Source of the DNA: Caulobacteraceae bacterium
GTDB taxonomy: Bacteria > Pseudomonadota > Alphaproteobacteria > Caulobacterales > Aquidulcibacteraceae
DNA length: 64,000 nucleotides
Assembly (NCBI GenBank): GCA_009773335.1
Contig: WRPF01000004.1
Coordinates: forward strand, 1 to 64,000
Direction of reading: 5' to 3'
Position 1 is the first letter of the stretch. Every line of letters begins with the position of its first letter. Positions 10,283-45,327 of this stretch are shown piece after piece. Both the position numbers and the translations under genes were made by a program. The notes beneath the pieces are model-generated. The model made no database searches. It was given only the letters and a program-made list of their open reading frames with translations, and had not been told where the DNA came from.

Positions 10283-10288
10283 GTCCGG

Positions 10289-12486: not shown

Positions 12487-13367
12487 GGACGACCTCCGAG
12501 GCGCGCCCGCCGGCGCTGCGTCGGCGCGCCTTCGCGTTCGATGCGCACGATCGCGGGCGCGCGCGTGCCGAGACGCAGTTCAGCCACATCGAAGATGCGA
12601 TCGACCATGTAACGCTGGCCCTGCACGCGATAATTCACGAGCTCAGCGCCTTCGCCGGTGATGACGAAGAGCGGCGGCAGATCGCTCGATGCGACCGCTT
12701 CCGGCATTTCAATCCAGGTACGTCGGCCGTCATCGAACACCCGCGTCGGCATCCAGTTCGGCCTGCCGCCCCGCACGGTGCGGACGCGATAACCGAAATG
12801 GAGCTGATCGACGCTCGCCATCCGCGCTTCTTCCTCAGCGGGATAACACCAGGCGATTTGTGCAGAATAAGCAGAGCCTGCCTGCGCGATCGCTTCGATC
12901 GTGTAGGTGCGCCGGTCGGTGACGAGAACGATATTGGTGCGGAGCCCCGTCGTCTGCGGCTTCACCAGCACAATGGTGCGCCCATCGATCTCGGCTTCCG
13001 CGCTGGTCTCCTGCACCATCCAGCGCGATGTATCGCCGGCGGCGACATCGCCCAATGTTTCGCCGGGTTCGAGCAGGATGGCGGAGATAAAACTGGGACT
13101 GGTGTAGAGCTCGTAAATGGCGCCTGGCGCATAGGTGTAGATCTGACGCGCCTGCGTGAAGCTCGTTGTTTCGGGCCGCTGGCGCGCTGCTTCATTAGCG
13201 AGCGCGAGCAATTCGGCTGGCGTGGGTTCGCGCCGGCCGCGGCGGGGCGCCTCCAATACGGCGGCGCTCAAGGCGGGACATTGATCGGCGCTCACCTCCT
13301 GCGCCATGACCGTTGGCGGCGACAGCAGCAGCGCCAGCGACAGACTCGCGAACAGGAAACGCATCAT
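12483..13367 (-). CDS. trbG: TrbG/VirB9-like type IV secretion protein
   Basis: 294 residues. A cleavable signal peptide (MMRFLFASLSLALLL, then SPPTVMAQE) precedes two beta domains with IYELYTSPSFISAILLEPGE and IVLVTDRRTYTIEA, typical of VirB9/CagX. It is periplasmic and part of the outer-membrane core complex with TrbI. Adjacent genes overlap by 4 bases on both sides, indicating one transcript. Confidence 0.9.
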   Translation of the reverse strand: MMRFLFASLSLALLLSPPTVMAQEVSADQCPALSAAVLEAPRRGRREPTPAELLALANEAARQRPETTSFTQARQIYTYAPGAIYELYTSPSFISAILLEPGETLGDVAAGDTSRWMVQETSAEAEIDGRTIVLVKPQTTGLRTNIVLVTDRRTYTIEAIAQAGSAYSAQIAWCYPAEEEARMASVDQLHFGYRVRTVRGGRPNWMPTRVFDDGRRTWIEMPEAVASSDLPPLFVITGEGAELVNYRVQGQRYMVDRIFDVAELRLGTRAPAIVRIEREGAPTQRRRARLGGRP

Positions 13368-14047
13368 CGCACCCGGCTCCAGCTGAATTCAGAAATGAGA
13401 AGTCCGAGCGGATTGGAGGCGATCTCATCGGCCGTGCGCGGGCGGCGCGTCGTGACGGTGAAGACGCCGCTATAGGCCTCGCCGTCGGGCGAGCCTGTCG
13501 CATTGGTCTCGCGTTCGATCCAGGACACTTCCCAGGAACGATCCGAGCGCTGGATGATGGAGCGGATATGCACGGTGCGCCCGACGCGCCCGAGACTGAG
13601 GAAGGGATCGTCCGCGCGCGCGATCTCGGTCAATTGCGCCGCCGCCTGCGGCGTCAGGAATTTGTATGCTTCCAGCCAATTCTCGCGCAGCACCACGCCA
13701 TCGGTCGGCAATGCACGTACGAGACGCACGAAACGGCCAAGATGATACGCGGTCTGCGCTTCGTTCGCGCGCCACTCGCCGCTTGCAGCGCGCACATTGA
13801 GGACCTGACCTTCGGGCGAGACTTCGACGACATGCACGAAGGTGCGGCTCTGCAGCGCGACGATCGTGAGCGCGAGCGCAAGGCCTGCGGAGAGGAGAAG
13901 TCCCGCCATCGCCATCAGACGCCAGGCGCGCGCGGAAATGACCGCCGCACCCATGCGCCGGTCCCATTCCTGGCGCGCGCGCTTATAGGGCGTGTCGGGC
14001 TCGTCGCCGGCATAGGATTGCGCCGGCGTCGTGAACGGCGTCCTCAT
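13364..14047 (-). CDS. trbF: TrbF/VirB8-like type IV secretion protein
   Basis: 227 residues. A short cytoplasmic N-terminus and one membrane helix (LMAMAGLLLSAGLALALTIV) precede a periplasmic NTF2-like domain (FVRLVRALPTDGVVLRENW, SWEVSWIERE). VirB8-type proteins nucleate assembly of the pore at the inner membrane. The gene overlaps trbL and trbG by 4 bases each. Confidence 0.88.
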   Translation of the reverse strand: MRTPFTTPAQSYAGDEPDTPYKRARQEWDRRMGAAVISARAWRLMAMAGLLLSAGLALALTIVALQSRTFVHVVEVSPEGQVLNVRAASGEWRANEAQTAYHLGRFVRLVRALPTDGVVLRENWLEAYKFLTPQAAAQLTEIARADDPFLSLGRVGRTVHIRSIIQRSDRSWEVSWIERETNATGSPDGEAYSGVFTVTTRRPRTADEIASNPLGLLISEFSWSRVR

Positions 14048-15084
14048 GTACTACTTCCTCCAGATGGCGGCGTTGCAGGCGGCGGCGGCGGCGGCGGCTT
14101 CATGCCGGCATAGTCGATGGCGGGCCTTGCAGCGCCTTGAGGCCCGCCGCCGCTTGAGAAGCGGCGACCCGCCGATTTCGCCGCGCCGCCAATCATTCTT
14201 GCGCCGCCAACGGCGAGTTTCGTGGCGTTGGAAACGAAGGCTGTCGCACCGGCGACGCCAAGCACGGTGGTGACCGCGGCGGCGCCGGCGACAGCCGGTC
14301 CCGCCAGATGCGGCTGTCCCTGGACGACCTCGCTCGCGAGAATGGGCGCGAACCAGGCGAGCGCCAGAACGGTGGCGCCGAACAGAAGCACATTGAGCAC
14401 GCCGCCGGCGTCGAGCGTGAACGTCGCGGGCAATGTGTTGACGAAGGTGATGGAGACGGAAGCGACGAAGGCCAAAACGAAGAGACGCATGGCCGAGCCC
14501 ACTACCCAGCCGAGCGGGCGCTCCGCCACCCAGGCGGTGCCGTTGAACACGCCCCAGGGCAACGCCACGAACGCGACAAGACTTCCGAGCTTGAATGCAA
14601 TCAGCACCACGAAGAGCTGCAGCGCCAACACGAAGAAGCCGAGCATGACGAAGAACGCCGCGAGGAAGATCGTCATCATCGCAAAGAAATCGGTGAGGAT
14701 GTTCATGCCTTCGGCGAGCGCGGCGGTGCGACCGAAAAGCTCAACGCCGATCTGCCCGACGCGGCCGGGATTGTGCAGCTCCGCCATGGTGAGCCCGCCC
14801 CCACCGGCGCGCAGGCCAAGCATGGCGCCCGATTGATTGATCGCGGTGGCGAGGAAATTCCAATTGTTGATAAGGAAGGCGAAGAATGAGACGAACAGCA
14901 CCTTGCGGAAGAAGGGCGCGAGCGGCGCCTCCTGCGCCAACGCCCATTGCGCGCCCGCCAGTACGATCGAAATGACGATCAGCGCGTTCAAGACATAGGT
15001 CACATCGCCCTGGATCAGACCGAAGCCGGAATTGGCGACGGCTAGAAACTGATCGAGGAAGGAATTGACCGATGACGGATCCAT
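14044..15084 (-). CDS. trbL: TrbL/VirB6-like polytopic membrane protein
   Basis: 346 residues with several membrane helices (for example VLNALIVISIVLAGAQWALA and FFAMMTIFLAAFFVMLGFFV). The C-terminus is a low-complexity Gly/Pro-rich tail with a run of seven prolines, encoded by a GGC-rich run at about 14080-14100. It forms the inner-membrane channel of the mating pore. It lies 15 bases after trbJ. Confidence 0.88.
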   Translation of the reverse strand: MDPSSVNSFLDQFLAVANSGFGLIQGDVTYVLNALIVISIVLAGAQWALAQEAPLAPFFRKVLFVSFFAFLINNWNFLATAINQSGAMLGLRAGGGGLTMAELHNPGRVGQIGVELFGRTAALAEGMNILTDFFAMMTIFLAAFFVMLGFFVLALQLFVVLIAFKLGSLVAFVALPWGVFNGTAWVAERPLGWVVGSAMRLFVLAFVASVSITFVNTLPATFTLDAGGVLNVLLFGATVLALAWFAPILASEVVQGQPHLAGPAVAGAAAVTTVLGVAGATAFVSNATKLAVGGARMIGGAAKSAGRRFSSGGGPQGAARPAIDYAGMKPPPPPPPATPPSGGSST

Positions 15085-15099
15085 TGCGCGGCGCCTCGC

Positions 15100-15819
15100 T
15101 CAGAACGCTGTGCGCGCGGGCGTTAGTGTCCCCGACGTCTCTGTCGGGAAAGCGCGCCGTTGAATCTCGCGTGCGCGCTCCTCGCGCGCGATCCTCTCCA
15201 GGCGCTCGGTTTCGAGCGCGCGGCCCTGCGCAATCAGCAGCGTGTGAATCTCCGCAAGCTGCGACGCCTGGATGCCCAAGAGCTGATTGCCAGCCTGGAT
15301 AGCGCCGGTCTGCCCTTCCGAACTGCCGGAAGATTGCAGCGCGCGATCGATGGCGCCTTGCGTGCGTGCGATCGAAGCCGCGGCGCGCGCTTCGGCCGCC
15401 ATCGCACGTTCAAGGCTGCGGCGGCTTTCCGCCATCCATTGGTCCGACTGACCTAGAACCTCATCGAGGTCGTAATTCTCCCAGGTCTCCGGATAGAGGG
15501 TGCGCAAATCCTCGCCAAGCTGGCGGGCCTCGAACGCGACGCCCTGCACGCTTTGAAAGAGCGCGCGGGCTTCTCCGATCGATTGCGAGAGCTCCGGCGA
15601 GAGTTGCAACGGATTCTGGCGCAGCATCGCGGTCGCTTGCTCAATCTGCTGCACCTGGTTGCGCAATTGCTGCACCATGTGCGTCACCTGCGTGATCGAC
15701 TGTGCAAGATTGGCAGGATCAATAACCGGGATTTGCGCCGATGCCGGCGGCGTCGGCTGCACGCCAAGCATCAGGCAAATCGCCAAGGCGGCCAGTCCAG
15801 TTCTCGTTCTCCGTTTCAT
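15100..15819 (-). CDS. trbJ: TrbJ/VirB5-like periplasmic pilus-associated protein
   Basis: 239 residues. A signal peptide (TGLAALAICLMLGVQP, cleaved near SAQ) precedes a long helical, Gln-rich region (ITQVTHMVQQLRNQVQQIEQ) and a second coiled-coil stretch near the end. VirB5-type proteins sit at the pilus tip and aid contact with recipient cells. The gene lies between trbE and trbL as in Tn4371-type ICEs. Confidence 0.85.
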   Translation of the reverse strand: MKRRTRTGLAALAICLMLGVQPTPPASAQIPVIDPANLAQSITQVTHMVQQLRNQVQQIEQATAMLRQNPLQLSPELSQSIGEARALFQSVQGVAFEARQLGEDLRTLYPETWENYDLDEVLGQSDQWMAESRRSLERAMAAEARAAASIARTQGAIDRALQSSGSSEGQTGAIQAGNQLLGIQASQLAEIHTLLIAQGRALETERLERIAREERAREIQRRAFPTETSGTLTPARTAF

Positions 15820-15828
15820 ACGCGCCTC

Positions 15829-18321
15829 CTATTCTGCAGCGATCGAGACTTTGGGTTGATCAGGTATTTGCGGGGATGTGCGCGCCTTGAAGCGCCGCAC
15901 CGCATCGGCGGCTTCGCGCTGTCGGCGCAGGTCGAGCCACGCTTCGGCAAAGGCGCCCGCGCCCTCATCGGCCAACACACGATCCATCAGCGCGTGATCT
16001 TCGGGGCGGGACGCGCCGACAAAAGCGAGCGACGCAGGGCCAAGGCCCAATTCGAACAGCCGGCAGCCGTCGCGGCTGACGAGGTAATAGTCGCGCTTGG
16101 GCGTCGCGCTTGCGATGAGATCGATCTGGCGGCCGTTCAAACCCAAGGCGGCGTAAAAGGCGCGCGAATGCGGTTCGCGCGCCCGGTCGTTCGGCAGGTA
16201 AATGCGCGTCGGGCAGGCCTCGATGATGGTGGAGGCGATGGACGAGTGCTCGACATCGGCCAGTTCCTGGCTTGCAAACACGACGGCGACGTTGCGCTTC
16301 CTGAGCGTCTTCAGCCAATCCTGAATTTGCGCTGCGAAGAACGCGTCCTTGAGGAACAGCCAGGCCTCATCGAGCACAAGCATGGTCGGGCGCCCGTCGA
16401 AGCGCTTCTCCAGCGCATGAAAGAGCGCGCCGAGCACAGCGCCCGCCGCTTCAGGGCGGCGCAGCACATCATCCATCTCGAAGGCCTGCACGGCCCCATA
16501 GCCCAATGTCGATCGATCATGGTCGATGAGCCGGCCGTGCGCGCCGCCTTGCGTGAAGGGATGAAGCGCGGCGCGAACATCCTGGTTCTGCATCAACGCC
16601 GCAAACAAAGTCAGCGTCCGGTCCTCGACCGGCCGATCGGCGAGCAATTCCAGAACGCGCCACACCTCCGTGCGCACTTCAGGCGTCACGCTCACATTGG
16701 CCGAGGCGATGAGACCGACGAGCCAGTCCTGCGCCCAGGCGCGTTCGTCCGGCTCATGCACACATTCAAGCGGCTGCAACCCCAGCGCATCGGCGTCCCC
16801 AAGATCGAAGAAGTCGCCGCCGAGGCCGAGAATGGTGGCGCGGCACGAGCGCCCCTTGTCGAACAGATAGATCTGCGCGCCCGCGGGATGACACGACGCA
16901 TAGCGCAACCATTGCGCCGCGAGCGTTGCGAGAAGCACCGATTTTCCCGCGCCGGTCGGGCCAACGATCATTGTGTGACCGACATCGCCGACATGGAGAT
17001 CGAGCCGGAACGGCGTTGCGCCATCCGTCGCCGTGAGCATGAGCGGCGGACCGTTCAGATGCGTATTGCGATGCGGCCCCGCCCAGACAGCGCTGAGCGG
17101 CAGCAAATGCGCGAGACTGGGCGACAGGAGGATCGGCCGGCGCGCGTCCGCATAGGCCTGTCCCGGCAGCGAGCCGAGCCAGGCTTCGACGGCGTTAACG
17201 GATTCCACCTGTGTGACGAAGCCCAGGCCATCGGCGATCTGTTGAATCTGGCGCACCGCATCGTCGGCCATATCCTCGCTTGCATCGGCGACGGTGATGG
17301 TGAGCGTGGCGAACCCGGCGCTGACAGCATCGGCGCCAAGCTCCTGCAGCGCGGTGTCGGCGTCGGCGGCCTGGTTGGCGGCGTCATTGTCGACGAGCAG
17401 CGCCTCCTCTCTGAAGAGCGCTTCGCGCAGCAAGGTCAGAAGGCCCTTGCGTTTCGAGAACCAACGCTTGCGTGTTTTCTCCAGTTCGCGGCGCGCCTCC
17501 TCCCTGTCGAGCGGAATAAAGCGGCTCACCCAGCGATAGGAGATCGCCAGCCGATTGAGCGCATCAAGAAATCCGGGCTCCGTCTCTGTTACGAAGCTGC
17601 GCACCGAAATGACGCGCAGATGATGGCGCCCAAGGCGCGGCGCGAGCCCGCCCACGAGCGGCGCATCGGTCAAGAGCGCGTCCAGATGAAAAGGCGTGTC
17701 GGGCTTGGCGACGCGATGGGGACGATCAGAGACACAATCGTGCAGATAGGTCAGCGTCTCCTCGTCACCCAGCCAACGCGCTTCGGGCGCCAAAGTCTCC
17801 ATCAGCGCCAGAATCTGATCTGTCTCGTTGGTGAAGCGGTCGAGATGCTGGCGATAATCGACAGACGACGCCGTCGCGCCCGCGCCCTCCTGCGCGCCTT
17901 CAAACAGAAAGCTCTCCAGCTTGGTTTGACGCTCAGCCGGCGGAAGCCAGGTCAGCGTGAAGAAATAAGCGCTCTCAAACCGCGCGCCCGCGGCCTCGAA
18001 TACGGCGCGGCGCTCTTCATCGATGAGCCACGACAAGGCGTCCGGCCATACCGAGTCCGGATAGCCCGGCGCAGGCGCGCGGCGCGCCTCGACATGAAGA
18101 CACCAGCCGGAACCCAATCGGCGGAACGCGTTGTTGAGCCGCGCGGACGCGCCCATCAATTCGGAGGCTGTCGAGGAATCGAGATCGGGACCGCGAAACG
18201 CCATGGTGCGCTGGAAGGCGCCGTCCTTGTTCAGGACCACGCCCGGCGCGATCAACGCAGCCCAGGGCAGGAAATCGCTGAGTTGCGTTCCGGACTTCTT
18301 GTAGGGGCGCAGGTCCATCAT
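15829..18321 (-). CDS. trbE: TrbE/VirB4-like conjugation ATPase
   Basis: 830 residues, full family length. The C-terminal ATPase domain has Walker A GPTGAGKSVLLATLA and Walker B PTMLVLDEAWLFL; the N-terminal half matches the CagE/TrbE/VirB family. It powers pilus assembly and substrate transfer at the inner-membrane cytoplasmic face. Long reading frames on the opposite strand here are GC-driven shadows. The start overlaps nothing; trbD ends 12 bases upstream. Confidence 0.92.
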   Translation of the reverse strand: MMDLRPYKKSGTQLSDFLPWAALIAPGVVLNKDGAFQRTMAFRGPDLDSSTASELMGASARLNNAFRRLGSGWCLHVEARRAPAPGYPDSVWPDALSWLIDEERRAVFEAAGARFESAYFFTLTWLPPAERQTKLESFLFEGAQEGAGATASSVDYRQHLDRFTNETDQILALMETLAPEARWLGDEETLTYLHDCVSDRPHRVAKPDTPFHLDALLTDAPLVGGLAPRLGRHHLRVISVRSFVTETEPGFLDALNRLAISYRWVSRFIPLDREEARRELEKTRKRWFSKRKGLLTLLREALFREEALLVDNDAANQAADADTALQELGADAVSAGFATLTITVADASEDMADDAVRQIQQIADGLGFVTQVESVNAVEAWLGSLPGQAYADARRPILLSPSLAHLLPLSAVWAGPHRNTHLNGPPLMLTATDGATPFRLDLHVGDVGHTMIVGPTGAGKSVLLATLAAQWLRYASCHPAGAQIYLFDKGRSCRATILGLGGDFFDLGDADALGLQPLECVHEPDERAWAQDWLVGLIASANVSVTPEVRTEVWRVLELLADRPVEDRTLTLFAALMQNQDVRAALHPFTQGGAHGRLIDHDRSTLGYGAVQAFEMDDVLRRPEAAGAVLGALFHALEKRFDGRPTMLVLDEAWLFLKDAFFAAQIQDWLKTLRKRNVAVVFASQELADVEHSSIASTIIEACPTRIYLPNDRAREPHSRAFYAALGLNGRQIDLIASATPKRDYYLVSRDGCRLFELGLGPASLAFVGASRPEDHALMDRVLADEGAGAFAEAWLDLRRQREAADAVRRFKARTSPQIPDQPKVSIAAE

Positions 18322-18333
18322 CGCAGCGCGCCC

Positions 18334-18606
18334 TCACGATCCGAAATAATGAGGCTTGGCCATGTGACGCGGCCAGGTGTCGAGAAACCACGGGTCGCGC
18401 GCAGCGGCCCAGGCGGCGGCGCCCTGCAGCACAGCCCATAGAGGAAAGGCGATGAACGGCTGTTGCAGACCGAAGCCGATCGCGGCCCCAACGGTCGCGT
18501 TGAGGATGGCGAAATTGCGCGGCACGCCGCCCATCAGGATCGGGCGCGTGAGCGAGGTCCGCAGCGGGATGCGATAGCCTTCGGGCTCTGAATCGGCGAG
18601 CGACAT
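18334..18606 (-). CDS. trbD: TrbD/VirB3-like inner-membrane protein
   Basis: 90 residues. The N-terminal motif YRIPLRTSLTRPILMGGVPR is typical of VirB3/TrbD, followed by hydrophobic helices. It works with the TrbE ATPase at the inner membrane. It lies 3 bases after the pilin gene. Confidence 0.88.
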   Translation of the reverse strand: MSLADSEPEGYRIPLRTSLTRPILMGGVPRNFAILNATVGAAIGFGLQQPFIAFPLWAVLQGAAAWAAARDPWFLDTWPRHMAKPHYFGS

Positions 18607-18609
18607 GTC

Positions 18610-18924
18610 TCAGATCACCGCGCCGCCGGCGAAGCCGAAGAAGTCGAGGAAGAACGAGACCGCCGCGAACATGATCGCGATTCCGAGGCCCACGAAGGCG
18701 AGCTTCCTCACCCCGCCGCCGCCTTCCGAGAAGATGATGGTGACGCCGGCGATGACGATGGCGATGACAGCGGCCGCGCGCGCGACAGGACCGGTGATGG
18801 AATCGACGATCTGTTCGAGCGGCCCTTCCCATGGCATCCCGGAACCGGCGGCATAGGCCGGCGCGGCCAATGCGAGCAGTGCTGCGGTGATTGCAGCGAT
18901 GCGTGTAAGATGTGCTGACTTCAT
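18610..18924 (-). CDS. trbC: TrbC/VirB2-like pilin
   Basis: 104 residues. A signal peptide (ITAALLALAAPAYA) and two hydrophobic helices separated by a Gly-rich turn (FSEGGGGVRKLAF) give the standard TrbC/VirB2 prepilin. It is the main subunit of the conjugative pilus. Its start overlaps the end of trbB by 4 bases. Confidence 0.88.
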   Translation of the reverse strand: MKSAHLTRIAAITAALLALAAPAYAAGSGMPWEGPLEQIVDSITGPVARAAAVIAIVIAGVTIIFSEGGGGVRKLAFVGLGIAIMFAAVSFFLDFFGFAGGAVI

Positions 18925-19862
18925 GCTCCCTCTCCTCGGATGTCGTCCGCCTCCAGAATTTCGGTGATGACGCGCCCGCCTTCGCGGCGGGCGATGAAGA
19001 CGATGATGTCGACCGCGCTGGCGATGAGACGCTTCGGCGGCGTCGCGCGCGCCTCCATGCAGAGGTCTTCCAGACGCATCAAAGCGTCGGCCGCGGAATT
19101 GGCGTGCAGCGTCAGCAGCCCGCCTGGATGACCGGTGTTCCAGGCCTTGAGGACTTCAAGCGCTGCGCCATCCCGCACTTCCCCAACGACGATGCGATCG
19201 GGGCGAAGCCGCAAGGTCATCTGCACCAGATCGCGCATGCTGATCGGCGGATCGGTACGTTTGGTGAGAAGCTGAACAGCGTTCGGGCTTCCACATTGGA
19301 GTTCAGCGGTGTCTTCGAGAATGACGACGCGGGCGTTCAGAAACGGCGCTTCCGCCAGAAGGGCGTTCAACAGCGTCGTCTTGCCCGAACCCGTGCCGCC
19401 CGCGACGATGATGTTGCGCTTGGCGGCGACCGCGGCGGCCAGCATTGCGGCCTGAGCGGGCGTTGCGATGCCGCCCGCAACATAATCGGCGAGCCTATAG
19501 ACGGCGCGCGGTCGCTTGCGGATCGCAAGCACGGGCGCATCGACCAGCGGCGGCAGCAAGGCCTGCACGCGCGCGGCGCTGTCCGGGAGGATCGTCTGCA
19601 AGGATGGATGCGCCTCGCCGACGATCTCGCCCGCCTCATGCGCCAGGAGACGGATCGCTGCTTCACGGTCCTGCGGCGAGAGCACGTGCGGCGTTGCAAT
19701 GAGACCAGCGCCAATTCTGTCGAGCCACAGGCGCCCGTCCGCATTGATCAGCGCTTCCACCACGTCCGGCGCGTCGAGCGCCTCGGCGATCGCGGGCCCC
19801 AGCGCACGCGCAAGCGCAGATCGCCGGCGCGCCGTCACGAGCGGAATGGCGCCAGCGTTCAC
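18921..19862 (-). CDS. trbB: TrbB/VirB11-like traffic ATPase
   Basis: 313 residues. Walker A GGTGSGKTTLLNALLAE, the Asp box (ARVVILEDTAELQC) and the His-box region (GHPGGLLTLHANSA) are present. VirB11-type hexamers energise pilus assembly and substrate passage. It overlaps the ribbon-helix-helix gene by 4 bases upstream and trbC by 4 bases downstream. Confidence 0.92.
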   Translation of the reverse strand: MNAGAIPLVTARRRSALARALGPAIAEALDAPDVVEALINADGRLWLDRIGAGLIATPHVLSPQDREAAIRLLAHEAGEIVGEAHPSLQTILPDSAARVQALLPPLVDAPVLAIRKRPRAVYRLADYVAGGIATPAQAAMLAAAVAAKRNIIVAGGTGSGKTTLLNALLAEAPFLNARVVILEDTAELQCGSPNAVQLLTKRTDPPISMRDLVQMTLRLRPDRIVVGEVRDGAALEVLKAWNTGHPGGLLTLHANSAADALMRLEDLCMEARATPPKRLIASAVDIIVFIARREGGRVITEILEADDIRGEGA

Positions 19863-20314
19863 GCCCGTACCTCCTCAGTGTGGTCCACCACGGCGACCGC
19901 CTGCGCGGACTCCAGAGAGAACGCCGCGCCCAGGGATTTGCCTGGCGCCAGCGCCTGCGCCACGAAATCGAGAAAGCGTTCGAAGCGCGCCTCGGCGCTG
20001 GCGGCAGCGTCTTCTTCCAAATGCTCGTCGATCGGCGGATTGTGCTCCAGCCAGACGCGCACAAAGAGCAACACGATCTCCTTGAGGATGAGACCTTCGC
20101 CGATCACCTTCTCAAGCCGCGCATCGACGCGGGAAAGCTGGCGGCGCGCGCTTTCCTCGATGACGGCGTTGGTGGCTTCGCCGCGTTCGAGCCGGGCTTT
20201 GAGCGCCTCAAGCACGATGCTCGATTCCGAGCGATGCTGGTCGCGGGCGACCTTGCGCACCTTGGCGTCGAGATTGGGCGGCAGATAGACGGTGAGCTTG
20301 CGCGCGGCCATCAC
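19859..20314 (-). CDS. Ribbon-helix-helix (CopG-like) protein between traG and trbB
   Basis: 151 residues. The N-terminus (ARKLTVYLPPNLDAKVRKVA) is a ribbon-helix-helix DNA-binding fold; a long helical C-terminal part with a hydrophobic stretch (LILKEIVLLFVRVWL) follows. Such a gene is usual at this place in Tn4371-type ICEs and may regulate the transfer operon. It begins directly after the traG stop and overlaps trbB by 4 bases. Confidence 0.75.
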   Translation of the reverse strand: MMAARKLTVYLPPNLDAKVRKVARDQHRSESSIVLEALKARLERGEATNAVIEESARRQLSRVDARLEKVIGEGLILKEIVLLFVRVWLEHNPPIDEHLEEDAAASAEARFERFLDFVAQALAPGKSLGAAFSLESAQAVAVVDHTEEVRA

Positions 20315-22321
20315 TCAGATCCCCTTGGCCTGACGCCGGCGCCGCGGCGCTTCGACTGGAGGCGCCTGAGATGCGGCAGCGGGCGGCGCGGCCGCGACGC
20401 TCGCCGGATGCGGCAATGCCGCGCCGTCCGCGTCGCGAAACGCGGCCATGGCAGCGTCGGAAATCTTGGTTAATCGCGTCGCGGCCTGCGCGAAGAGATC
20501 GGGCTGGTCGGCGAGCGGGCGAGACATGGCGGGCTTCGCCTTCGGTGACTTCACCACCTGCGGAATGACGCCCAGCGGGCGTACGTGCGCCCAATCATGT
20601 GTCGTCGTCAGTGTTGAACGGTTCCACGAGGCAGGACGAAGTCGCTCAACAAAGACGGGCTCCTGATCGAACTTGAGCTTCTTGGCGCGGATGGGTTTGG
20701 CGCCGGAGACGAAGATGAGCTCTTCATCGCGCGGCAGCGCGCGGACATCGGCGGGCAGAAGCAGCGGACGGCGCTCCTCGCGGATTGTGGTCGAGCCTTT
20801 GCGCCAACCGAGGATCGATCTCGGACGCGTGTGCGTTTCGCTCTCGCGCAATTCCCAGACTTCGCCCGCCATCTCGGCGATGCGCTTGGCGGTGTCAGTG
20901 TCGGCGGCCGAGAACGCGGTGACGACATGGACGTTATCCAGGATGACATTCTCGCGGCCATAGGCCTTGGTCAGATGGTTGAGACTTTGCGTCACCAGAA
21001 AGGCCTTCAGGCCATAGCCCGCCATCGCGCCCATCATCGTCTCGAAGAAGGGCATGCGGCCGAGCATGGGAAATTCGTCGAGCACCAGAATGAGGCGGTG
21101 ACGCTTGGGCCGCCCTTGCGCATCCTTCTCCTGATGCTCCATCAGCGCGCGGGCGAATTGATTGATGACCAGGCGTAAGAACGGCATCAGCCGCAGCGCG
21201 TCCGACGGCGGCGGCTGCAAATAGAGCGTGACCGGTTTCGGCCCACACATCAGATCACCGATGCGAAAGTCGGATGTCGCCGTGTTGCGTGCGACGATTT
21301 CATCGGCGAACAGGCCGAAGAAACTTTCCGCCGTCGCCTTGACCCCGCTCTGAACACGCTCCTCGCCAGCGAGAAAGGATTCCGCAGCGTGCAACACTTC
21401 GGGATGCACCTCCGGCTGGTTGGTCGCCGGATTCAGCCGATGCAGCGTCGACTTCATGATTTGCGCGGTCGCGTCCAGGTCACGCAACTTCTCGCGCACC
21501 ACCGCCAGCGTCTTGCGTTCCGGCGGCTCGGCATAGAGCACGTGCAGGATAACGCCGACGAGGATCGTCTTGGCCGAACGGTCCCAGAAGTCCTGATGGC
21601 GGCCATCGCCTTGCGGATCGATGAGGATCTCGACGATGTTCTGGACGTCACGGACTTCGTTGGGTCCCTTGCGCACTTCGTGCAGCGGGTTGAACGAGGC
21701 TGAATCCAACCGTGTGGGCGCGAGGCGTAAGACCGGCCCCAGAGTCTCGCGAAAGCCTGCCGTGCCAGGAAAACGATGGCGCGCATCACCATCGGCGAGT
21801 TCGCCTTTGACATCGAGCACGAGCGCCGAATGCGGCCACGCCAGAAGCGTGGGCACGACCTGACCTCTGCCCTTGCCCGACCGCGAGGCTCCGATGAGGA
21901 GCTGATGTTCGGGCCCGTCGAAGCAGAGGATGTCGCGCCCGAATTTGCCGAGCACGGCGCCCGTATTGGCAAAGAGCCCCGCGGCCTTCGCATCGTTCGC
22001 CCCGCCCCATGCCTTGGCGCCGAAGGGCTTGACGGCGAGTTGGCCGCGCGCGGCGACGGCAATGGGCAGGAGCGCGAGCACGAAAGCGCCGAACACGATG
22101 AGGCGCGCCACGGAGAATGGCCTGGGAAACGCTTCCGCATGCGCGCTGGTCCAGGCCAGAATCGCCCACGGCGCATAGACTGGCTCATCGCCGAGCATCA
22201 TGAACGGCGCGCCGAGCGCACGCTGATGGGCGAACACGTCGGCAATGAAGGCGGTGGCGAGCCAAAGCCCGGTGAGCGCGATCAGCGCCGAACCTAGCAA
22301 TGCGATTCCCGCCCGCTGCAT
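20315..22321 (-). CDS. traG: TraG/VirD4-like conjugative coupling protein
   Basis: 668 residues. Two or three N-terminal membrane helices precede a RecA-like ATPase with Walker A GASRSGKGRGQVVPTLL and Walker B LILVLDEFPMLG. The coupling protein brings the relaxase-DNA complex to the mating pore. It is the first gene of the operon that runs to trbI and the HTH gene, about 11 kb. The promoter should lie within the 340-base gap upstream. Confidence 0.92.
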   Translation of the reverse strand: MQRAGIALLGSALIALTGLWLATAFIADVFAHQRALGAPFMMLGDEPVYAPWAILAWTSAHAEAFPRPFSVARLIVFGAFVLALLPIAVAARGQLAVKPFGAKAWGGANDAKAAGLFANTGAVLGKFGRDILCFDGPEHQLLIGASRSGKGRGQVVPTLLAWPHSALVLDVKGELADGDARHRFPGTAGFRETLGPVLRLAPTRLDSASFNPLHEVRKGPNEVRDVQNIVEILIDPQGDGRHQDFWDRSAKTILVGVILHVLYAEPPERKTLAVVREKLRDLDATAQIMKSTLHRLNPATNQPEVHPEVLHAAESFLAGEERVQSGVKATAESFFGLFADEIVARNTATSDFRIGDLMCGPKPVTLYLQPPPSDALRLMPFLRLVINQFARALMEHQEKDAQGRPKRHRLILVLDEFPMLGRMPFFETMMGAMAGYGLKAFLVTQSLNHLTKAYGRENVILDNVHVVTAFSAADTDTAKRIAEMAGEVWELRESETHTRPRSILGWRKGSTTIREERRPLLLPADVRALPRDEELIFVSGAKPIRAKKLKFDQEPVFVERLRPASWNRSTLTTTHDWAHVRPLGVIPQVVKSPKAKPAMSRPLADQPDLFAQAATRLTKISDAAMAAFRDADGAALPHPASVAAAPPAAASQAPPVEAPRRRRQAKGI

Positions 22322-22661: not shown

Positions 22662-23189
22662 CTAACTCTGTTCGCGTAAAGAGAGCAAAGGATGCGGGCC
22701 CTTCTCCTTGGCCGTGCGCAACCCCGGCGCCACATCCACAGATTTGATGAAGCCGTTCTCGGGATCGAGACGCTCCCGCAAAGCGTCCCAGGCCGATACC
22801 GATGGCAATGCGGTCTTCAGGATATAGTCGAAACGGCCGGCGATGCTGTGCGCTTCGATGACTTCCGGCGTCTCGCGCAACGCCGCTTCGAAGGCCTCGC
22901 GCCGTTTGTGCGCCCGGCGACGCAACTTGATGCTGACCCAGAGCATTGACCAGCAATCGAACATGGCCTCTTCCGCGACCGCGACATAACCCTTGATCGC
23001 GCCGCCCTCTTCCAGCCGGCGCACGCGCTTCAAACATCCGCTCGGCGACAAGCCCAATGCGCGCGCCAGCGCCTGGTTCTGAATGTGCGCGTCTTCCTGC
23101 AAACGGCGGATGAGTTCGAGATCGACAGGGTCGAGGCGCGCCCCGTTCGGGGCGAACAGCGGCGGCGTAACGGACCGCCGCCCGGTCAC
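22662..23189 (-). CDS. Lrp/AsnC-family transcription regulator
   Basis: About 175 residues. The N-terminal HTH (DPVDLELIRRLQEDA, ALARALGLSPSGCLKRVRRL) and C-terminal RAM-like domain (EVIEAHSIAGRFDYILKTAL) match Lrp/AsnC proteins. I start it at GTG 23189, with the purine-rich GGGGTAGAAG before it; a much longer frame to 23636 would run through the parB leader and is unlikely. It is divergent from parB and upstream of traG, so it could control transfer or maintenance genes in response to an amino acid or similar ligand. The ligand is unknown. Confidence 0.8.
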   Translation of the reverse strand: MTGRRSVTPPLFAPNGARLDPVDLELIRRLQEDAHIQNQALARALGLSPSGCLKRVRRLEEGGAIKGYVAVAEEAMFDCWSMLWVSIKLRRRAHKRREAFEAALRETPEVIEAHSIAGRFDYILKTALPSVSAWDALRERLDPENGFIKSVDVAPGLRTAKEKGPHPLLSLREQS

Positions 23190-23311
23190 GCTTCTACCCC
23201 GCCCAAGCGTTCGGTCAGCGCATACGCCATCTTCACGTCCCCACAGCGCCCACTTTCGGTTGAGTCTTTCTCGCCGGCCACCCGTTCGCTGCTGAGACCT
23301 GACCCGAATCA

Positions 23312-23450
23312 GCCGGGGCCGCGCGCCGCGACCTCCGCACATCGCCCGCGCGGCCGTCCGCGTCGAGGGACGCTGACGCTCTGAAGCCCTCGACCCGGCC
23401 GGCTTCTGGCGCGGGCCAGGAGGAAAAAGGTCGCGACGCGCGGCCCCGGC
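23312..23450. repeat. Long nested inverted repeat before parB, possible single-strand promoter
   Basis: Three nested pairs build one large hairpin. The outer arms are 23312-23334 with 23428-23450 (23 bases, one mismatch). The middle arms are GCCCGCGC at 23344-23351 with GCGCGGGC at 23409-23416. The inner arms are GTCGAGGG at 23362-23369 with CCCTCGAC at 23387-23394. The structure ends 39 bases before the parB ATG. A fold this large is not a simple terminator. Confidence 0.75.
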
Positions 23451-23489
23451 GGACCGAGGCGTCCGCCGCTCACCTTCTGGAGCAATCCC

Positions 23490-25412
23490 ATGACAACCGA
23501 AATTCTCGACACCAGCACCGAGACGCAACGCGCCTGTTTCGTCGCGGTCAGCAAACTCGTCGTGCATGAAGATAATGTCCGCCGAACCGACAAGCGCGCG
23601 GATATCGAGGCGCTCGCCGCCTCCATCGCTGCACATGGCCTCCTGCAGAATCTCTCCGTCGTGCGCGCGGAAGACGGCCGCTACGCCGTGGTCGCGGGAT
23701 CACGCAGGCTGGCGGCGCTCCGGCTTCTCATCAAGCAGGGCAAGCTGGCGCGCGATTTCGCGGCGCCGTGCACGATCATCGAGCCGGAACTGAGCGCGGA
23801 GGCGTCGCTCGCGGAAAACGTCCAACGCGTCGCCATGAACGCCATGGACGAAATGGAAGCCTTCGCACGCCTTGTCGATGACGGCATGAGCGTTGAAGCC
23901 ATTTCCGAACGGTTCGGCGCAAGCGTACGTCACGTCGAACAGCGCCTCGCCTTGGGACGCCTCTCGCCGAAGATCCGCGCCGCCTACCGCAAGGGCGACC
24001 TCACGCTCGATGTCGCGCGGGCCTTCTGTCTCACTGACGATCACGGCGCCCAGGAGCGTCTGTTCAAGCAGGTTCCGAAGCCGGTCACCCATGCGCCCAG
24101 CATCCGCAACGCGCTTTCAGGCGGTCGCGCGCCCGCCACTGACCGACTGGCGCGCTTCGTTGGGCTGGAAGCGTATGAAGGAGCGGGCGGCCGGATCGTG
24201 CGGGACCTGTTCGAGAATGAGGTCGCCTTCCTCGAAGACGGCGAACTTCTACAGCGCTTGGCCGCGGAGCGCATCGAAGAGATGCGCGAAACCCTGGCAT
24301 CCGAAGGCTGGGCGTGGGTCGAGGCGCAATTGCACCACGCGCAGATCGAAGGCTGCGCGAGCGAGCGCGTGCGCCCGCGCGCACGTTCGCTGACACAGGA
24401 AGAGAGCGAGGGCATTGCGGACCTCGAAGCCGAAATCGAAGCGCTCGACAACGAGCTTGAATCCGATTCCGACAATGAGGCGCTGTGGGCCGCGCGCGAC
24501 GCGGCGGAGGCGCGGCTCGATGCACTGCGGGAGTCGCACCAGAGCTGGGACAAGGCGGAGATGGCGCATGCCGGCGCCGTCGTCACCATCGACCGCAACG
24601 GCGAGCCCATCATCACCCGCGGTCTCATCAAGCGCGGCGACCTCAAGGCTGTTCGCAAGCTGCGCTCGGTCGAGTCAGATGCCACACCCGATACCGACGA
24701 TCCTTCGTCCGAAGCGGCGCCGAGATCGCCGTCCCTGCCGAAATCGCTTGTCGAGGGACTGACCGCAGCACGCACGCGGGCGCTGCGCGCTGAGCTATCC
24801 GGCCGTCCCCATGTCGCGCTCGCCCTCACGGTGCTGGCGCTCATGCACCGGAGTGCGGCGCGCGCCGGCGTGCCGGGGCTCGCCATTGCGATCTCGCCAG
24901 TCGGGTTCGATGACGACGATCGGTTCGAGCAAGCTCGCACCGAAGCATCGACCGCTTATGCGGACGCGGACCTCGCCCGCCTTGCGGATGAGCCCGCCGA
25001 CAAGCTGCTTGAACTCCTCGCTCTCTTCATCGCGGAGGCTGTCGACGTCACGCATGACGGCGCTTCGCTTTCGGCGGACCGCACGCAAGCGACCTCGGAC
25101 GAACTTGCAGCCGTACTAGATCTCGACATGAGCCGCTATTGGGAGGCGTCGAGCGAATTTTGGGAGAAGGCGCCCAAGGCGTTCACGCTTGAAGCGCTTT
25201 CAAACGCGCCGGCCATGGCCAAGCTCACCGAGCGAGCGCGGAAACCGAAGATCGCCGCCTTCGCAAAGATGAAACGCACCGATCTCGCCCGCGTGGCGGT
25301 GCGCCAGCTCAAGGACTGGCTGCCCGATGCGCTGATCACGCCGCCGCGCCCCGGCGCATTGGTCGTTACATCAGCCGGGCACAGGGCGCTCGCTGAAGCC
25401 GACGCCGCCTGA
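23490..25412 (+). CDS. ParB/RepB/Spo0J-like partition or leading-region protein
   Basis: 640 residues, ATG with CTGGAGCA before it. The N-terminal ParB domain (VHEDNVRRTDKRADIEALAA, AAHGLLQNLSVV, VVAGSRRLAAL, LAENVQRVAMNAMDEMEAF) is followed by an HTH region (MSVEAISERFGASVRHVEQR) and an acidic, coiled-coil middle. The long C-terminal half has no recognised domain. Such ParB-like proteins are common on plasmids and ICEs and may act in partition, as nuclease or as SOS/defence modulators in the recipient. No parA lies next to it. The gene is followed by ardC. Confidence 0.85.
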   Translation: MTTEILDTSTETQRACFVAVSKLVVHEDNVRRTDKRADIEALAASIAAHGLLQNLSVVRAEDGRYAVVAGSRRLAALRLLIKQGKLARDFAAPCTIIEPELSAEASLAENVQRVAMNAMDEMEAFARLVDDGMSVEAISERFGASVRHVEQRLALGRLSPKIRAAYRKGDLTLDVARAFCLTDDHGAQERLFKQVPKPVTHAPSIRNALSGGRAPATDRLARFVGLEAYEGAGGRIVRDLFENEVAFLEDGELLQRLAAERIEEMRETLASEGWAWVEAQLHHAQIEGCASERVRPRARSLTQEESEGIADLEAEIEALDNELESDSDNEALWAARDAAEARLDALRESHQSWDKAEMAHAGAVVTIDRNGEPIITRGLIKRGDLKAVRKLRSVESDATPDTDDPSSEAAPRSPSLPKSLVEGLTAARTRALRAELSGRPHVALALTVLALMHRSAARAGVPGLAIAISPVGFDDDDRFEQARTEASTAYADADLARLADEPADKLLELLALFIAEAVDVTHDGASLSADRTQATSDELAAVLDLDMSRYWEASSEFWEKAPKAFTLEALSNAPAMAKLTERARKPKIAAFAKMKRTDLARVAVRQLKDWLPDALITPPRPGALVVTSAGHRALAEADAA

Positions 25413-25438: not shown

Positions 25439-25470
25439 GCGCCGCCGGACCACCGGCGGCGCTCTTGTTT
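25439..25470 (+). terminator. GC hairpin with T-rich tail between parB and ardC
   Basis: GCGCCGCCGG at 25439-25448 pairs with CCGGCGGCGC at 25453-25462 (10 bp, loop ACCA), followed by TCTTGTTT. It looks like a modest intrinsic terminator after parB, but it ends only 6 bases before the ardC ATG. It might instead act as an attenuator or as part of a structured promoter, like those before parB and ssb. Confidence 0.5.
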
Positions 25471-25476
25471 GGAGCC

Positions 25477-26379
25477 ATGAAACCCATGACCCTTCATACC
25501 AAGATCGACGCCCAACGGCGCGACATTGCGTTGGAAATTACCACCAAGATTCTTACCGAGTTGGAACGGGGCGTCATACCATGGCGCAAACCTTGGGATG
25601 GCGCGCGCACGGGGCTTGCGCTGCCGCGCCGCGCCACCGGCGAGAATTATCGCGGCGTGAACGTCATCATGTTGTGGAGCGCCGCCGTCGCGAAGGGCTA
25701 TGCGTCGCCCTACTGGATCACGCTGCGCCAAGCGAACCAGATCGGCACCCATGTTCGCAAAGGCGAGCGCGGAGAAATGGTTGTCTATTACGGCCAGGCG
25801 AAAAAGACGCGCGACATTGGCGCCGGCGAAAAAGTGGAAGACAGCTTTCGCTTTCTGAAGTTCTTTACCGCCTTCAACGCTGAACAGATCGACGGGCTTC
25901 CCGAGAGGTTCTTTCCGGGTCCAGTCGAGACAGACGTTTTCCCAATCGCCGCGCATGAAGCATGGTTCGCCAAACTCGATATCAAGCGTATCCTGACCCA
26001 GGACATCGCCTGTTACATTCCATCCAAGGACGTGATCGGCATGCCGCCTCTGGCGGCGTTCGATTCAGCGGATCACTATGCAGCGACGCTGAACCACGAG
26101 GCGGTCCATGCCACCGGCGCCGCGCATCGCGTCGGGCGCGACATGTCCAAGCGCTTCAGCGCGCATGCGCTCGCAGCGGAAGAACTCGTCGCCGAGATCG
26201 GCGCCTCGATCCTTGGCGCGCACCTCGGGCTGCCACCGGATCATCTCAGCGATCATGCCTCTTACGTCCGCCACTGGATGAAACTGCTGAAGGACGACAA
26301 GCGCGCGTTTCTGTCAGCGGCGGCCCAGGCGCAAACAGCGGTCGATTGGTTGTTGAACAAGAGTTCGCCGGCCCTCTGA
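25477..26379 (+). CDS. ardC: ArdC-like antirestriction protein (ssDNA-binding plus zincin metallopeptidase)
   Basis: About 300 residues; starts possible at 25477 or 25486. The N-terminal DUF1738-type ssDNA-binding domain (RDIALEITTKILTELERGVI, then PWRKPW) precedes a zincin-like peptidase domain with the metal motif HEAVHATG (HExxH) and a third ligand region (EELVAEIGASILGAHLG). ArdC proteins enter recipients early in conjugation and protect incoming DNA from restriction. It follows parB and lies in the maintenance/anti-defence stretch of the ICE. Confidence 0.92.
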   Translation: MKPMTLHTKIDAQRRDIALEITTKILTELERGVIPWRKPWDGARTGLALPRRATGENYRGVNVIMLWSAAVAKGYASPYWITLRQANQIGTHVRKGERGEMVVYYGQAKKTRDIGAGEKVEDSFRFLKFFTAFNAEQIDGLPERFFPGPVETDVFPIAAHEAWFAKLDIKRILTQDIACYIPSKDVIGMPPLAAFDSADHYAATLNHEAVHATGAAHRVGRDMSKRFSAHALAAEELVAEIGASILGAHLGLPPDHLSDHASYVRHWMKLLKDDKRAFLSAAAQAQTAVDWLLNKSSPAL

Positions 26380-29983: not shown

Positions 29984-32900
29984 CTACGCCTTGAGCGCAC
30001 GGACGCATGCCTCAAGGATTTGAGCCGTAGTCTGCGCTTGCGGGTGATCAGCGCCGAAACTTGCCTTCATAATGGCGAATGAACGCCTGCAGAGTGGTTC
30101 AGCCTCGGCGTGCCGATTTGTGGTTACGAGGAGGACCGCGAGGTTATTGAGGCGGATAGCGACGTTGGGATGATCAGGACCGAAGCTCTCCTCGTCGATT
30201 TTGAGCGCGCGTCGAAGTAACGGCTCAGCTTCTGCCAAGCGGCCAGTCGCGCGAAGAAGCGTCGCGAGGTTGTTCAGGCCCATCGCTACATCGATATCGT
30301 CGAGCGCCAGGCCTTTCTCGGCAATATCGAGCGCGCGTCGCAACAAGGGCTCGGCCTCGGCCAGCCGGTTGGTATCCATCAGAAGCGCCGCGAGATTGTT
30401 TAGGTCACCCGCCACGTCGGGGTGGTCAGTGCCATAGAGTTCCTCATCAATGGCCAGCACGCGCCTCAGCAGCGGCTCGGCTTCGGTGTGGCGGTCGAGT
30501 TTGCAAAGCAGTTGAGCGAGGTGGTTGAGGCGGAGAGCTACCTTGGGGTGGTTAGCCCCGAAAGTCTTCTCGTAAGTCTCAAGCGCTTGTCGATAGAGCG
30601 GTTCTGCTTCGGCGAAGCGATCCGTAGAACTCAGGAGTTCGGCGAGATTATCGTAAGCAGCAGCTACGTTGGAATGGATGGACCCGAAGCTCAATTGCCA
30701 TATCTTGAGCACGCGCCGCAAAATCAGTTCGGCTTCGTTGAAGCGTTGCGTTTGCACGAGGCAGACCGCGAGATTGTTGAGGTCGGTCGCCACCTGCGGA
30801 TGTTGTGAGCCAAAGGCCTTCTCATCAATGGCAAGGGCGCGCCTAAGAAGCGGCTCCGCTTCCCCGTCGCGGTTTGTGGCCAGGTAGAGCGTGGCCAGAT
30901 TGTTGAGAACTGTTGCGACCTTTGGATTCTCGGGGCCAAAGGTCTTCTCATCAATGGCAAGAGCGCGCTTGAGAAGCCGCTCGGCTTCGGCGTGGCGGTT
31001 AGTGTCGCCGCAGAGCACGGCCAGATCGTTTAGGTGGGCGGCTACCTTTTCATGCTCGGGACCGAAGATTTTCTCGCCAATGGCGAGCGCACGCCTCAAG
31101 AGCGGCTCGGCTTCGGCAAATTGGTCTGTTCTGGTAAGCAGGGCTGCCAAGTGTGACAGCGCAAAAGCCACAGCCTCGTTGTCCGGCTCCGCAATCCCCC
31201 GCTCCATGGTGTCGAGGGCATCGCGGTAAATCTCCTCAGCCTCTTCGAGGCGACCCGACTGTTCCAGCAATGATGCAAGATGGATTGAAGCGACCGCCGT
31301 TATCGCATCAAATGCAAATAGGCGTCGCAATGACGCGACACGATTCTCCGCAAGCTGCACGCTTGGTTGTCCAGAAGCGCCGGTGAACTTGAGAAAGTCT
31401 GCTAAAGCGGATGCCAGCTTGTTCTCCTCTACCGACCATCGCTCGGCCTCTCCACAACGCAAGGCGAATGCATGGCAAAGTAGGCGCTCCGGATCGCGGC
31501 CGCGCTCCTTGAGCGGCAGCCAGTAGCTCCACAACGCGCTGTCGCTTCCCGCGTGCAACAAATGGAAGTGATCGAGGTCGAGGAGCAATGCTTCCAGCCG
31601 ATCCCACGCCTCGCCTGCGCGCAATTGATAAGGCAATTCTTCCGCTTGCCGTTCGTCGGGCGGACGCATTTCGAAATAGTCGGCGAGCGAAAGATGCGCC
31701 AACCGCTTCCCTTCGTCGCTGTTGATGTAGCGGCCCCCAACCGCTTGGTTGAGAAAGTCGTGCCCAAACGCCATCCGTCCCTGATGATCGCGTAAGCCGT
31801 CGCCCAAACCGTTTCGCAACGTTGCCCAAACGAGCGGCGACGCGTCAGTGATGGCTAGGATCTCGGTTTCCTCGAGCCCGACGCGGCTGGCCCAGATCAG
31901 CGGCAGCACCTTTGCGACGAAACCAGGTTCGCAATCACCTTCGAGACGCTTAAGTACGCGGTCGAACAGGTCGGCCATGTCACGCGCTTCGCTGTAGTCT
32001 TCCAGCCGCTCGGCCAAGCGAGCATTATCAGCCGAGACGCGCAATTCCTCGAGCACGGTCTTGAGATAAAGGGGCGACCCAGCAAGCTCTGCCGCCGCCG
32101 GTTGCAGGATACGCGCGATGTGTTGCGGCTCCAGCTTACGGCGCCAACGCTTGAGCGTGCCGGCGATGAGGTCCCGCCGCTCCTGTTCGACGAGCGGCTT
32201 AACATCGAGCGGCTCAAAGCCACGGGCCCGCGCCGCGGTCTCAGCCTCGCTTGGAAGGCTCGACGCCAGCCAATGCACTCCGGGCGCGATGGGCAACCAA
32301 CGCAAATTCTGCTCACTCGACAATTTGTCGAGGCCATCGAGCGCGATGAGCATGCGCGAGCCGCTGCGTTTAGCGCTCACACGCGCCTGCGCCAGACGCT
32401 GCGCCAGCGCCGCCGACACATCCATCAACTCGGCTCCGTCGCCGGGCAGAGCGACGCTCTCGCCAGTGGCGTGATTCAGGTGCTCCCAGAGTCTGCGCAT
32501 GATCTGCATTGGATCGGCGCTGTCCGGAGAAGCTCCAAGATAGTGCTCGAACACGATGTGGCTCGGATGCGCCTTGCGCCATGCGTTGATCCAGTTGGCC
32601 ACGAGAGTGGACTTGCCGCTGCCCGAGGCACCCGTGATCAGGAGCGGCGCGGCGTCTTTTGTTTCCATCCAGCGATTGAGATCGCGCATATAGCCATCGG
32701 CGCCGACATGGAGCCGGCGCCGCTCGCGCGCATAGGCCCGGTGCAGGCGCGCGGTCTGTTCGAAGGCGCCGGGCGCATCTGCCTCGGGAAAACGCGCCTC
32801 CAGCAGAGCATCGAGGGCTGCGGCGACCTTCGGCCCGATCTCTGCTGGCCGCGCATAGGCTTCGACTCGCGACGTCCGGCCGATGTACGCCTTGAGATCC

Positions 32901-33736: not shown

Positions 33737-34067
33737 GCTTGCCCCCGCAGTGATGCTAGCAGGCTATCGGATCACGAGAACTGATTTTCACCGTCTCGAC
33801 CCGGCCCCAACAGGCGGCCACATTGCGCTTTGAGGCAGACGTTCATCCCACTCACTCATCCGGCAGGATTGGGCCATCGATAGCGGGATTGTCACAAACG
33901 CCGAACGGCTTGCTCGCTCAATAGCTGCCGTTTGCTCTTAGACGCAAACTCCCAGGCATCCTCACCGCCGGCGCCACCGCGCTCGCCCACGCCGTCGCCA
34001 TGACCGCCCGGCCGGCGGGACGCGCAAGGAGAAAATCGTCTCCCCGCCCCGCTCGCGCGGGCTATCG
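33737..34067. other. Intergenic stretch between the STAND gene and the ssb leader
   Basis: About 330 bases without a convincing gene. It must contain the promoter of the STAND gene, but I see no clear -35/-10 pair. It leads into the hairpin cluster before ssb. Confidence 0.4.
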
Positions 34068-34185: not shown

Positions 34186-34207
34186 AACGCTTATCGGAGT
34201 TCTTCTC

Positions 34208-35547: not shown

Positions 35548-39054
<3,507 letters not shown>

Positions 39055-39082
39055 ACGCGATTTCGGAAAAGACAGTGACTCA

Positions 39083-45324: not shown

Positions 45325-45327
45325 GGC

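Follow-up and report, generated by a model that had tools for sequence, protein, structure and literature searches.

A 139-base nested inverted repeat stands shortly before a parB-like gene in the window, by which we mean the whole stretch of 64,000 nucleotides that was analysed, and the question is what such a structure does there. An earlier note, made from the sequence alone, had proposed a single-strand promoter of the Frpo type, from which the strand arriving in conjugation could be transcribed. Early protective-gene expression and second-strand formation in arriving ICEs are little known; passages of PMC4595007 record its authors' view that, in 2015, virtually nothing was known on how transferred ICE DNA becomes double-stranded. 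The results described here suggest that the hairpin probably helps a newcomer element to switch on, or to be copied, before it is double-stranded.

Host element and gene content

The window carries an ICE adjoining guaA, with the following features.

11386-22321, minus strand: traG/trb type IV secretion genes, flanked by the two H1 copies described below (traG, trbI, trbG and trbF-like by Pfam)
23490-25412, plus strand: parB-like gene, ParB_N and HTH_ParB domains, 640 aa
25439-25462, plus strand: short GC hairpin in the parB-ardC gap (10 bp, z -5.3 on the plus strand; terminator-like by eye), with TCTTGTTT after it
25465-26379, plus strand: ardC anti-restriction gene (ArdcN 6.5e-35, MPTase-PolyVal 2.7e-38)
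34076-34549, plus strand: SSB-like gene, weak match (Pfam 25.4 bits for a cut-off of 26; NCBIfam E 3.4e-7, also below cut-off)
48358-49575, plus strand: RlxS-like relaxase gene (NF041267, E 2.5e-58, 198 bits, under the 850-bit cut-off)
50445-51728: integrase (Pfam)

The gene set appears to be of the ICEMlSymR7A type. Within it, traG, trb and the integrase were assigned by Pfam and RlxS below its cut-off, while the TraF-like and RdfS-like genes were named from reading of the sequence alone; the other trb names within 11386-22321 were given by position and reading. An Lrp/AsnC-like gene on the minus strand is divergent and adjoins the hairpin, and after it the plus strand carries parB, ardC, cargo and the SSB-like gene, in this order. 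The 12 closest named relatives of the ParB come from Hyphomonadaceae (8), Caulobacterales (1) and unspecified Alphaproteobacteria assemblies (3).

The earlier note had placed parB-like, ardC and ssb genes together on the same strand, each behind a GC hairpin. The first two have the domains listed above; the ssb gene is a weak match below both cut-offs. As for the hairpins, the one before parB is the subject of this study and the one before ardC is an ordinary short one; the region before ssb (33930-34075) showed no fold above chance (z 0.36 on the plus strand, -0.44 on the minus strand).

Some further loci were noted in passing. The large DUF4062-NACHT-TPR protein encoded at 29984-33736 gave no PADLOC match and is a STAND-like candidate defence gene in the predicted leading region. 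Hma-type defence genes occupy 35548-46986, with an HmaA-like helicase and an HmaB-like methylase (PADLOC) followed by a DUF499/HEPN protein, and a GmrSD-like/HEC-05 gene is found at 45328-46986. Between lrp and parB, 19 bases at 23249-23267 (CCCACTTTCGGTTGAGTCT) do not differ between the window and four of its close relatives, and are perhaps the lrp promoter.

Geometry and folding of the hairpin

The repeat is present at exactly the coordinates first proposed, 23312-23450. As had also been described, three nested stems form a single hairpin, and 39 bases separate its end at 23450 from the parB ATG at 23490. We call the core made of the two inner stems H1.

23312-23334, minus strand: outer 23-bp stem, left arm; pairs with 23428-23450 in 23 consecutive pairs on the minus strand
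23344-23351, minus strand: H1 stem 1, left arm; pairs with 23409-23416, with compensatory versions across clusters
23362-23369, minus strand: H1 stem 2, left arm; pairs with 23387-23394, with compensatory pairs at several positions over 19 clusters
23372-23379, minus strand: apical mini-hairpin 5'-GC-GTCA-GC-3' with a GNNA loop, from the tip-loop survey of copies
23387-23394, minus strand: H1 stem 2, right arm; pairing conserved across clusters
23409-23416, minus strand: H1 stem 1, right arm; pairing conserved across clusters
23428-23450, minus strand: outer stem, right arm; its plus-strand bases can also form a local hairpin, H2 (GTCGC..GCGGC)

Folded as DNA, 23312-23450 reached -60.0 kcal/mol on the plus strand (z -5.7) and -65.3 kcal/mol on the minus strand (z -6.9), and none of 200 dinucleotide shuffles was equally stable on either strand. 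The hairpin is thus real and far beyond chance. The single mismatch of the outer stem is a C.A on the plus strand and turns into a G.T wobble on the minus strand, so that the 23 pairs are unbroken there. With the minus-strand z of -6.9 and the compensatory pairs presented below, a stable stem-loop on one strand before genes, as looked for in an Frpo, is present.

Distribution of H1

Thirty-five parB leaders were gathered: that of the window, three others of the same genome and 31 of relatives. All but G050a and G054a have the double-stem core, which makes 33 leaders, and in G036d, G010b and G012b among these the tip is different. A covariance model, R1, was built from 21 of the 33. At E <= 0.05 it misses six core-bearing leaders, namely G036d, G010b, G012b, G022c, G036c and G029b. 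The window contains two matches.

23340-23450, plus strand: R1 match, 101.7 bits; the window sequence is itself among the 21 that built R1
7239-7352, plus strand: second H1 copy, x-type (35.4 bits, E 0.003 for the window; minus-strand loop GAA)

Searching at E <= 0.01 gave 60 matches, and 35 of the 60 family genomes had at least one. Forty-eight stand before parB, three before ardC and eight past the 3' end of trbI; L227, the sole copy for which none of these genes was found, has a partly decayed stem and tip. The parB or ardC start codon, as estimated from the BLAST match, follows the end of the model match by 1-121 nt. Eight other elements carry an x-type copy; its distance from the end of the trbI match is 359-422 bp, except in G036, where it is 1436 bp and an ORF intervenes. 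The copies at both module ends have the same orientation in the window, G026 and G036. By eye, among the six x-type loci listed, an obvious plus-strand gene follows the x-type copy only in the window and in G036. In the window, the copy at 7239-7352 lies about 200 bp ahead of a four-gene plus-strand group, an S24/LexA-like gene followed by CBASS genes that match a SAVED-HNH effector, a cyclase and an E2 (7239-10993). Because of this position, the CBASS defence operon may have been placed under an H1 entry element.

One genome, G000, carries four H1-parB modules (L009, L042, L043 and L044, on contigs C65, C170, C43 and C243), and therefore probably has several related ICEs or remnants.

Outside this family the structure was scarce. 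The class-level R1 search (E <= 0.001, strict filters), whose thresholds would also miss x-type copies, found it only in its own genome, 1 of the 289 sampled. In other families, no comparable fold was seen in four leaders carried by three plasmids (z -0.9 to -2.3). H1 is therefore not general to parB/ardC leaders. A set of 80 loci with ParB yielded 73 folded leaders, of which 23 were listed, five of them close relatives; among the leaders listed, those of ParB relatives of about 36% identity, mostly Beta- and Gammaproteobacteria, have shorter and different hairpins. Many of the Beta- and Gammaproteobacterial parB relatives (L069-L085) carry another GC hairpin, GCGGCAGGGGC...GCCCTTGCCGC, before parB.

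Two trivial identities were considered and set aside. A dispersed repeat of the REP or MITE kind is not indicated, as a 210-base query matched its own genome at full identity only at itself and its self-complement; the best partial match (E 1.4e-6) was at another parB leader and the rest were at E 0.06 or weaker. Nor is H1 a known RNA family: Rfam gave no match in the window at the gathering score, and none over H1 in 14 loci at E up to 5. We know of no paper describing H1 from a search of the open-access PMC literature.

Conservation of the stems

Pairing was counted on 63 copies grouped at 85% identity into 19 clusters, one copy per cluster; L227 (no apex found), G036d, G010b and G012b were left out. 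At stem 2 position 4 the pair is G-C in 11 clusters, A-T in 7 and T-A in 1, and at position 6 it is T-A in 15 and G-C in 3, with one cluster unpaired. Position 9 is G-C in 12 and C-G in 7, so that all 19 clusters are paired; the stem 2 anchor was placed using positions 0-7, and position 9 onward is independent of this anchoring. Positions 7 and 8 are paired in only 13 and 11 of the 19 clusters, respectively. For stem 1, a perfect helix of at least 7 bp was present in 16 of the 19 cluster representatives vs 8.7% of shuffles, with varying sequences (GCCCGCGC, CGCCTGCG, TGCGTGC, GCCATCG, GCACGCCG). RNAalifold predicted 16 pairs from the 21-sequence alignment, 7 of them changed on both sides. The stems are thus conserved with changed bases in related ICEs, which was one of the checks set for the earlier proposal.

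The 23-bp outer stem, visually the most striking part and prominent in the first description, is not the part that has been kept. It beats all of 40 shuffles in 23 of the 52 non-x copies (48 parB, 3 ardC and L227) and in none of the 9 x-type copies; it is therefore an add-on, the least conserved part of the structure and not its core.

Relaxase gene, predicted oriT and predicted direction of transfer

In ICEMlSymR7A, as described in parts of PMC11963761, rdfS is the first gene of an operon that includes traF-msi107; this gene lies upstream of oriT and rlxS, and oriT adjoins rlxS. RlxS is classed as MOBP1 in the relevant passage of PMC8627217. That of PMC3772185 gives the MOBP nick consensus as (C/T)ATCCTG(C/T) and places a hairpin 5' of it. 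A candidate nick region was found at the corresponding place.

48231-48242, minus strand: nic-like block GGCTAGATAAAG (minus strand CTTTATCTAG^CC) before rlxS; predicted nick between 48233 and 48232

The block GGC(A/T)AGATAAAG recurs with small variations in all of 15 aligned rlxS upstream regions, which were chosen from the closer matches. On the minus strand it reads CTTTATCTTG-CC or CTTTATCTAG-CC, near the MOBP nick, and in several elements a hairpin can be made out by eye 5' of it, which matches the MOBP layout. In the window, the block reads ATCTAG and agrees with ATCCTG at 4 of 6 positions; the fold beside it (48240-48300) is weak, with z of -2.1 and -2.4. Over 48231-48340 the block is followed by further inverted repeats before rlxS, and this stretch is a candidate oriT of the ICE family.

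Since the conserved nic-like block lies on the minus strand before rlxS, the minus strand is predicted to be the one transferred, leading leftwards from about 48.2 kb. The minus strand is also the template of parB, ardC and ssb, which read towards the predicted oriT, and parB and ardC lie on its transfer-gene-facing side. This geometry, in which the predicted transferred strand is the gene template, would be that of Frpo. Apart from the window, an rlxS match occurs on the same contig as H1 for 11 copies (the parB copies G017a-c, G022a-c, G001b, G000b, G000d and G010b, and the ardC copy of G018), and in every one of the 11 the gene precedes rlxS and has its orientation; parB to rlxS distances in shared contigs range from 3.8 to 29.5 kb.

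Possible strand preference and the DNA-type tip

The tip was surveyed in 67 copies, comprising the 60 model matches, the x-type copy of the window and the six leaders missed by R1. On the minus strand it reads GC-loop-GC, and the loops are GNA in 29 copies, GNNA in 29, GNAB in 4 and AAA in 1, with 4 copies lacking the mini-hairpin; 62 of 67 copies thus have GNA, GNNA or GNAB loops. They are closed by C-G, with a single T-G exception. In L214 the mini-stem is flipped, reading GCC-GAA-GGC where others read GGC-GAA-GCC. The plus-strand tip loops are TNC, TNNC or end in TNC, outside the GNA/GNNA/GNAB classes.

RNA tetraloops prefer GNRA. The tip does not follow this rule, because purines and pyrimidines are about equally frequent at the third position of the GNNA loops (15 and 14 copies, respectively). 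GNA triloops are specially stable in DNA, for example in d(GCGNAGC), whose GCGAAGC form occurs in literature listings. Going by the title of a 2002 paper by Nakano et al., d(cGNNAg) and d(cGNABg) are reportedly thermodynamically selected DNA motifs. Only the minus strand offers a regular, DNA-like apical fold.

The outer stem leans the same way. Its transition mismatches comprise 51 A.C vs 21 G.T on the plus strand, for 38.3 A.C expected from composition (p 0.0018), and 10 of 13 clusters lean to the minus strand and 1 to the plus strand, in a count taking one copy per cluster and covering 22 of the 23 copies (L223 was omitted as a near-duplicate). Inside H1, however, the wobbles of 61 copies amount to 73 G.T and 59 A.C on the plus strand, a count in which three copies (L045, L043 and L021) had their apex wrongly placed, and show no bias to the minus strand; they were thus dropped as strand evidence. 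A wider count outside H1 (125 to 237) extends past the structure and was set aside.

Fold energy cannot by itself settle the strand, because H2 folds better on the plus strand (26 vs 4 of 33 with RNA parameters, 17 vs 2 with DNA parameters) and because a partly coding control stretch downstream is biased to the minus strand (28 vs 5 with RNA parameters, 23 vs 4 with DNA parameters). The better minus-strand fold of the long region in 30 of 33 cases (DNA parameters) was therefore discounted. Altogether, with regard to sso-type strand specificity, the tip loops and outer-stem wobbles favour the minus strand, the H1 wobbles are neutral and H2 favours the plus strand; the last two oppose a simple one-strand story.

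Proposed function and alternatives

Compensatory conservation, a DNA-type tip on one strand and a place before the first protective genes, on the strand predicted to enter single, lead us to read H1 as an entry signal. We lean towards the view that it is a transferred-strand structural element of RlxS/trb-type ICEs that starts RNA on the incoming strand, as promoter, primer site or both; such a double role has been proposed for Frpo. H1 would be silent in double-stranded DNA. The minus strand would enter the recipient with oriT, near 48.2 kb, first, and proceed leftwards past ssb, ardC and parB. On entry H1 would fold into two nested stems with an asymmetric bulge, capped by a very stable GNA/GNNA mini-hairpin, and a host or ICE enzyme would begin to make RNA on this fold or right beside it, heading back to oriT. 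The RNA would be the early mRNA of the parB-ardC group, a second-strand primer, or both; the transfer-gene stretch would be served from the copy past trbI. That H1 stands so close to parB and ardC points to a role in expression; the copies past trbI suggest that priming is at least part of the job. Several results speak against this reading, namely the lack of a -35/-10 pair in the window copy (see below), the unbiased wobbles inside H1, the better plus-strand fold of H2 and the biased control stretch, the incomplete pairing of stem 2 positions 7 and 8, the x-type loci with no obvious gene behind them, the narrow distribution, the imperfect nic block of the window with its weak adjoining fold, and the RlxS match under its cut-off.

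The orientation of H1, which is the same before the gene in 51 of the 60 copies, would also suit a cis-acting RNA leader, in which H1, H2 and the pre-start hairpins control translation or termination from the 5' UTR of parB or ardC. H2 folds better on the plus strand, and several of the leaders listed show, by eye, further downstream hairpins extending towards the ribosome-binding region. We nevertheless consider this rather unlikely: the conserved tip is regular on the minus strand and not the plus strand and disregards the GNRA rule, the Rfam searches of the window and the 14 loci were negative, no sigma-70-like promoter was detected in 23180-23500, and most of the listed copies among the eight past trbI have no obvious plus-strand gene behind them. 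This last feature, together with copies at both ends of the transfer module in the same orientation (window, G026 and G036), would rather fit a pure priming site of the sso/ssi kind, which would recruit primase or RNA polymerase for the second strand only, the closeness to parB and ardC being positional; ICEBs1 provides a precedent with an orientation-specific sso downstream of oriT, according to sections of PMC4595007. Yet 51 of the 60 copies stand directly before parB or ardC, and the sole copy with no parB/ardC behind it, L227, is partly decayed, which makes priming alone unlikely.

The divergent Lrp/AsnC gene adjoining the hairpin in the window would agree with H1 acting as duplex DNA, either an operator or a cruciform, to which ParB, the Lrp-like regulator or some other protein would bind for autoregulation of the divergent region. 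The copies before ardC and past trbI are, however, not tied to parB, which disfavours a ParB-specific operator, and the tip spacing varies by one base at constant loop class, as would hardly be expected of a fixed operator. This explanation appears improbable to us.

Within the favoured reading of H1 as an entry signal, the Frpo-type promoter first suggested is sustained in part. The conserved stems, the templating of parB and ardC on the predicted transferred strand and the DNA-like tip agree with it. Frpo is, however, described with -10 and -35 boxes in the part of PMC9849209 that deals with it, and on both strands of 23180-23500, in the window copy, a search by E. coli-type consensus gave 0 sigma-70-like -35/-10 pairs (0.0 in shuffles too). 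Calling H1 a canonical Frpo would thus go too far. More tentatively, H1 could be a new class of single-strand entry element, a DNA-structural signal and not a disguised sigma-70 promoter, that starts RNA at ICE module borders. The double stem, bulge and d(cGNAg), d(cGNNAg) or d(cGNABg) mini-hairpin would then be read only on the incoming strand; the parB/ardC defence-evasion genes would be served first and the rest from the copy past trbI, and cargo such as the CBASS operon could come under H1 control. The conserved structure itself suggests that single-strand promoters or primer sites can do without -35/-10 boxes. As the structure is recognisable by covariance model and offers clear point mutations (tip loop, stem re-pairing), the question becomes testable beyond the F plasmid.

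Comparison with known systems

The H1 tip belongs to the same loop classes as the stable DNA mini-hairpins d(GCGNAGC), d(cGNNAg) and d(cGNABg). These are known from in vitro work, whereas the H1 tip is a conserved natural element.

With ICEs of the ICEMlSymR7A type (rdfS, traF, rlxS, trb), the host element apparently shares its gene set and an oriT, here predicted, beside rlxS, as passages of PMC8627217 and PMC11963761 describe them. These passages do not mention a leading-region hairpin for ICEMlSymR7A; the words 'parB', 'ardC' and 'leading' do not occur in the main text of PMC8627217, nor 'parB' in that of PMC11963761.

The sso1 of ICEBs1 lies downstream of oriT, is orientation-specific and is built of stem-loops, according to portions of PMC4595007. 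H1 is likewise a candidate single-strand origin-type structure on an ICE, downstream of a predicted oriT. It differs by its host group and by being tied to parB/ardC, and the two are likened by description, not by sequence.

Another parallel in layout is with the Frpo/ssi promoters of F, ColIb-P9 and related plasmids, where, in the passages of PMC9849209 and PMC11541004 concerned, a leading-region hairpin precedes the genes and the transferred strand is their template, as is predicted for H1. In contrast to these promoters, the window copy of H1 has no detected -35/-10 pair, and H1 belongs to an alphaproteobacterial ICE family, recurs beyond the other end of the transfer genes and bears a conserved GNA/GNNA tip.
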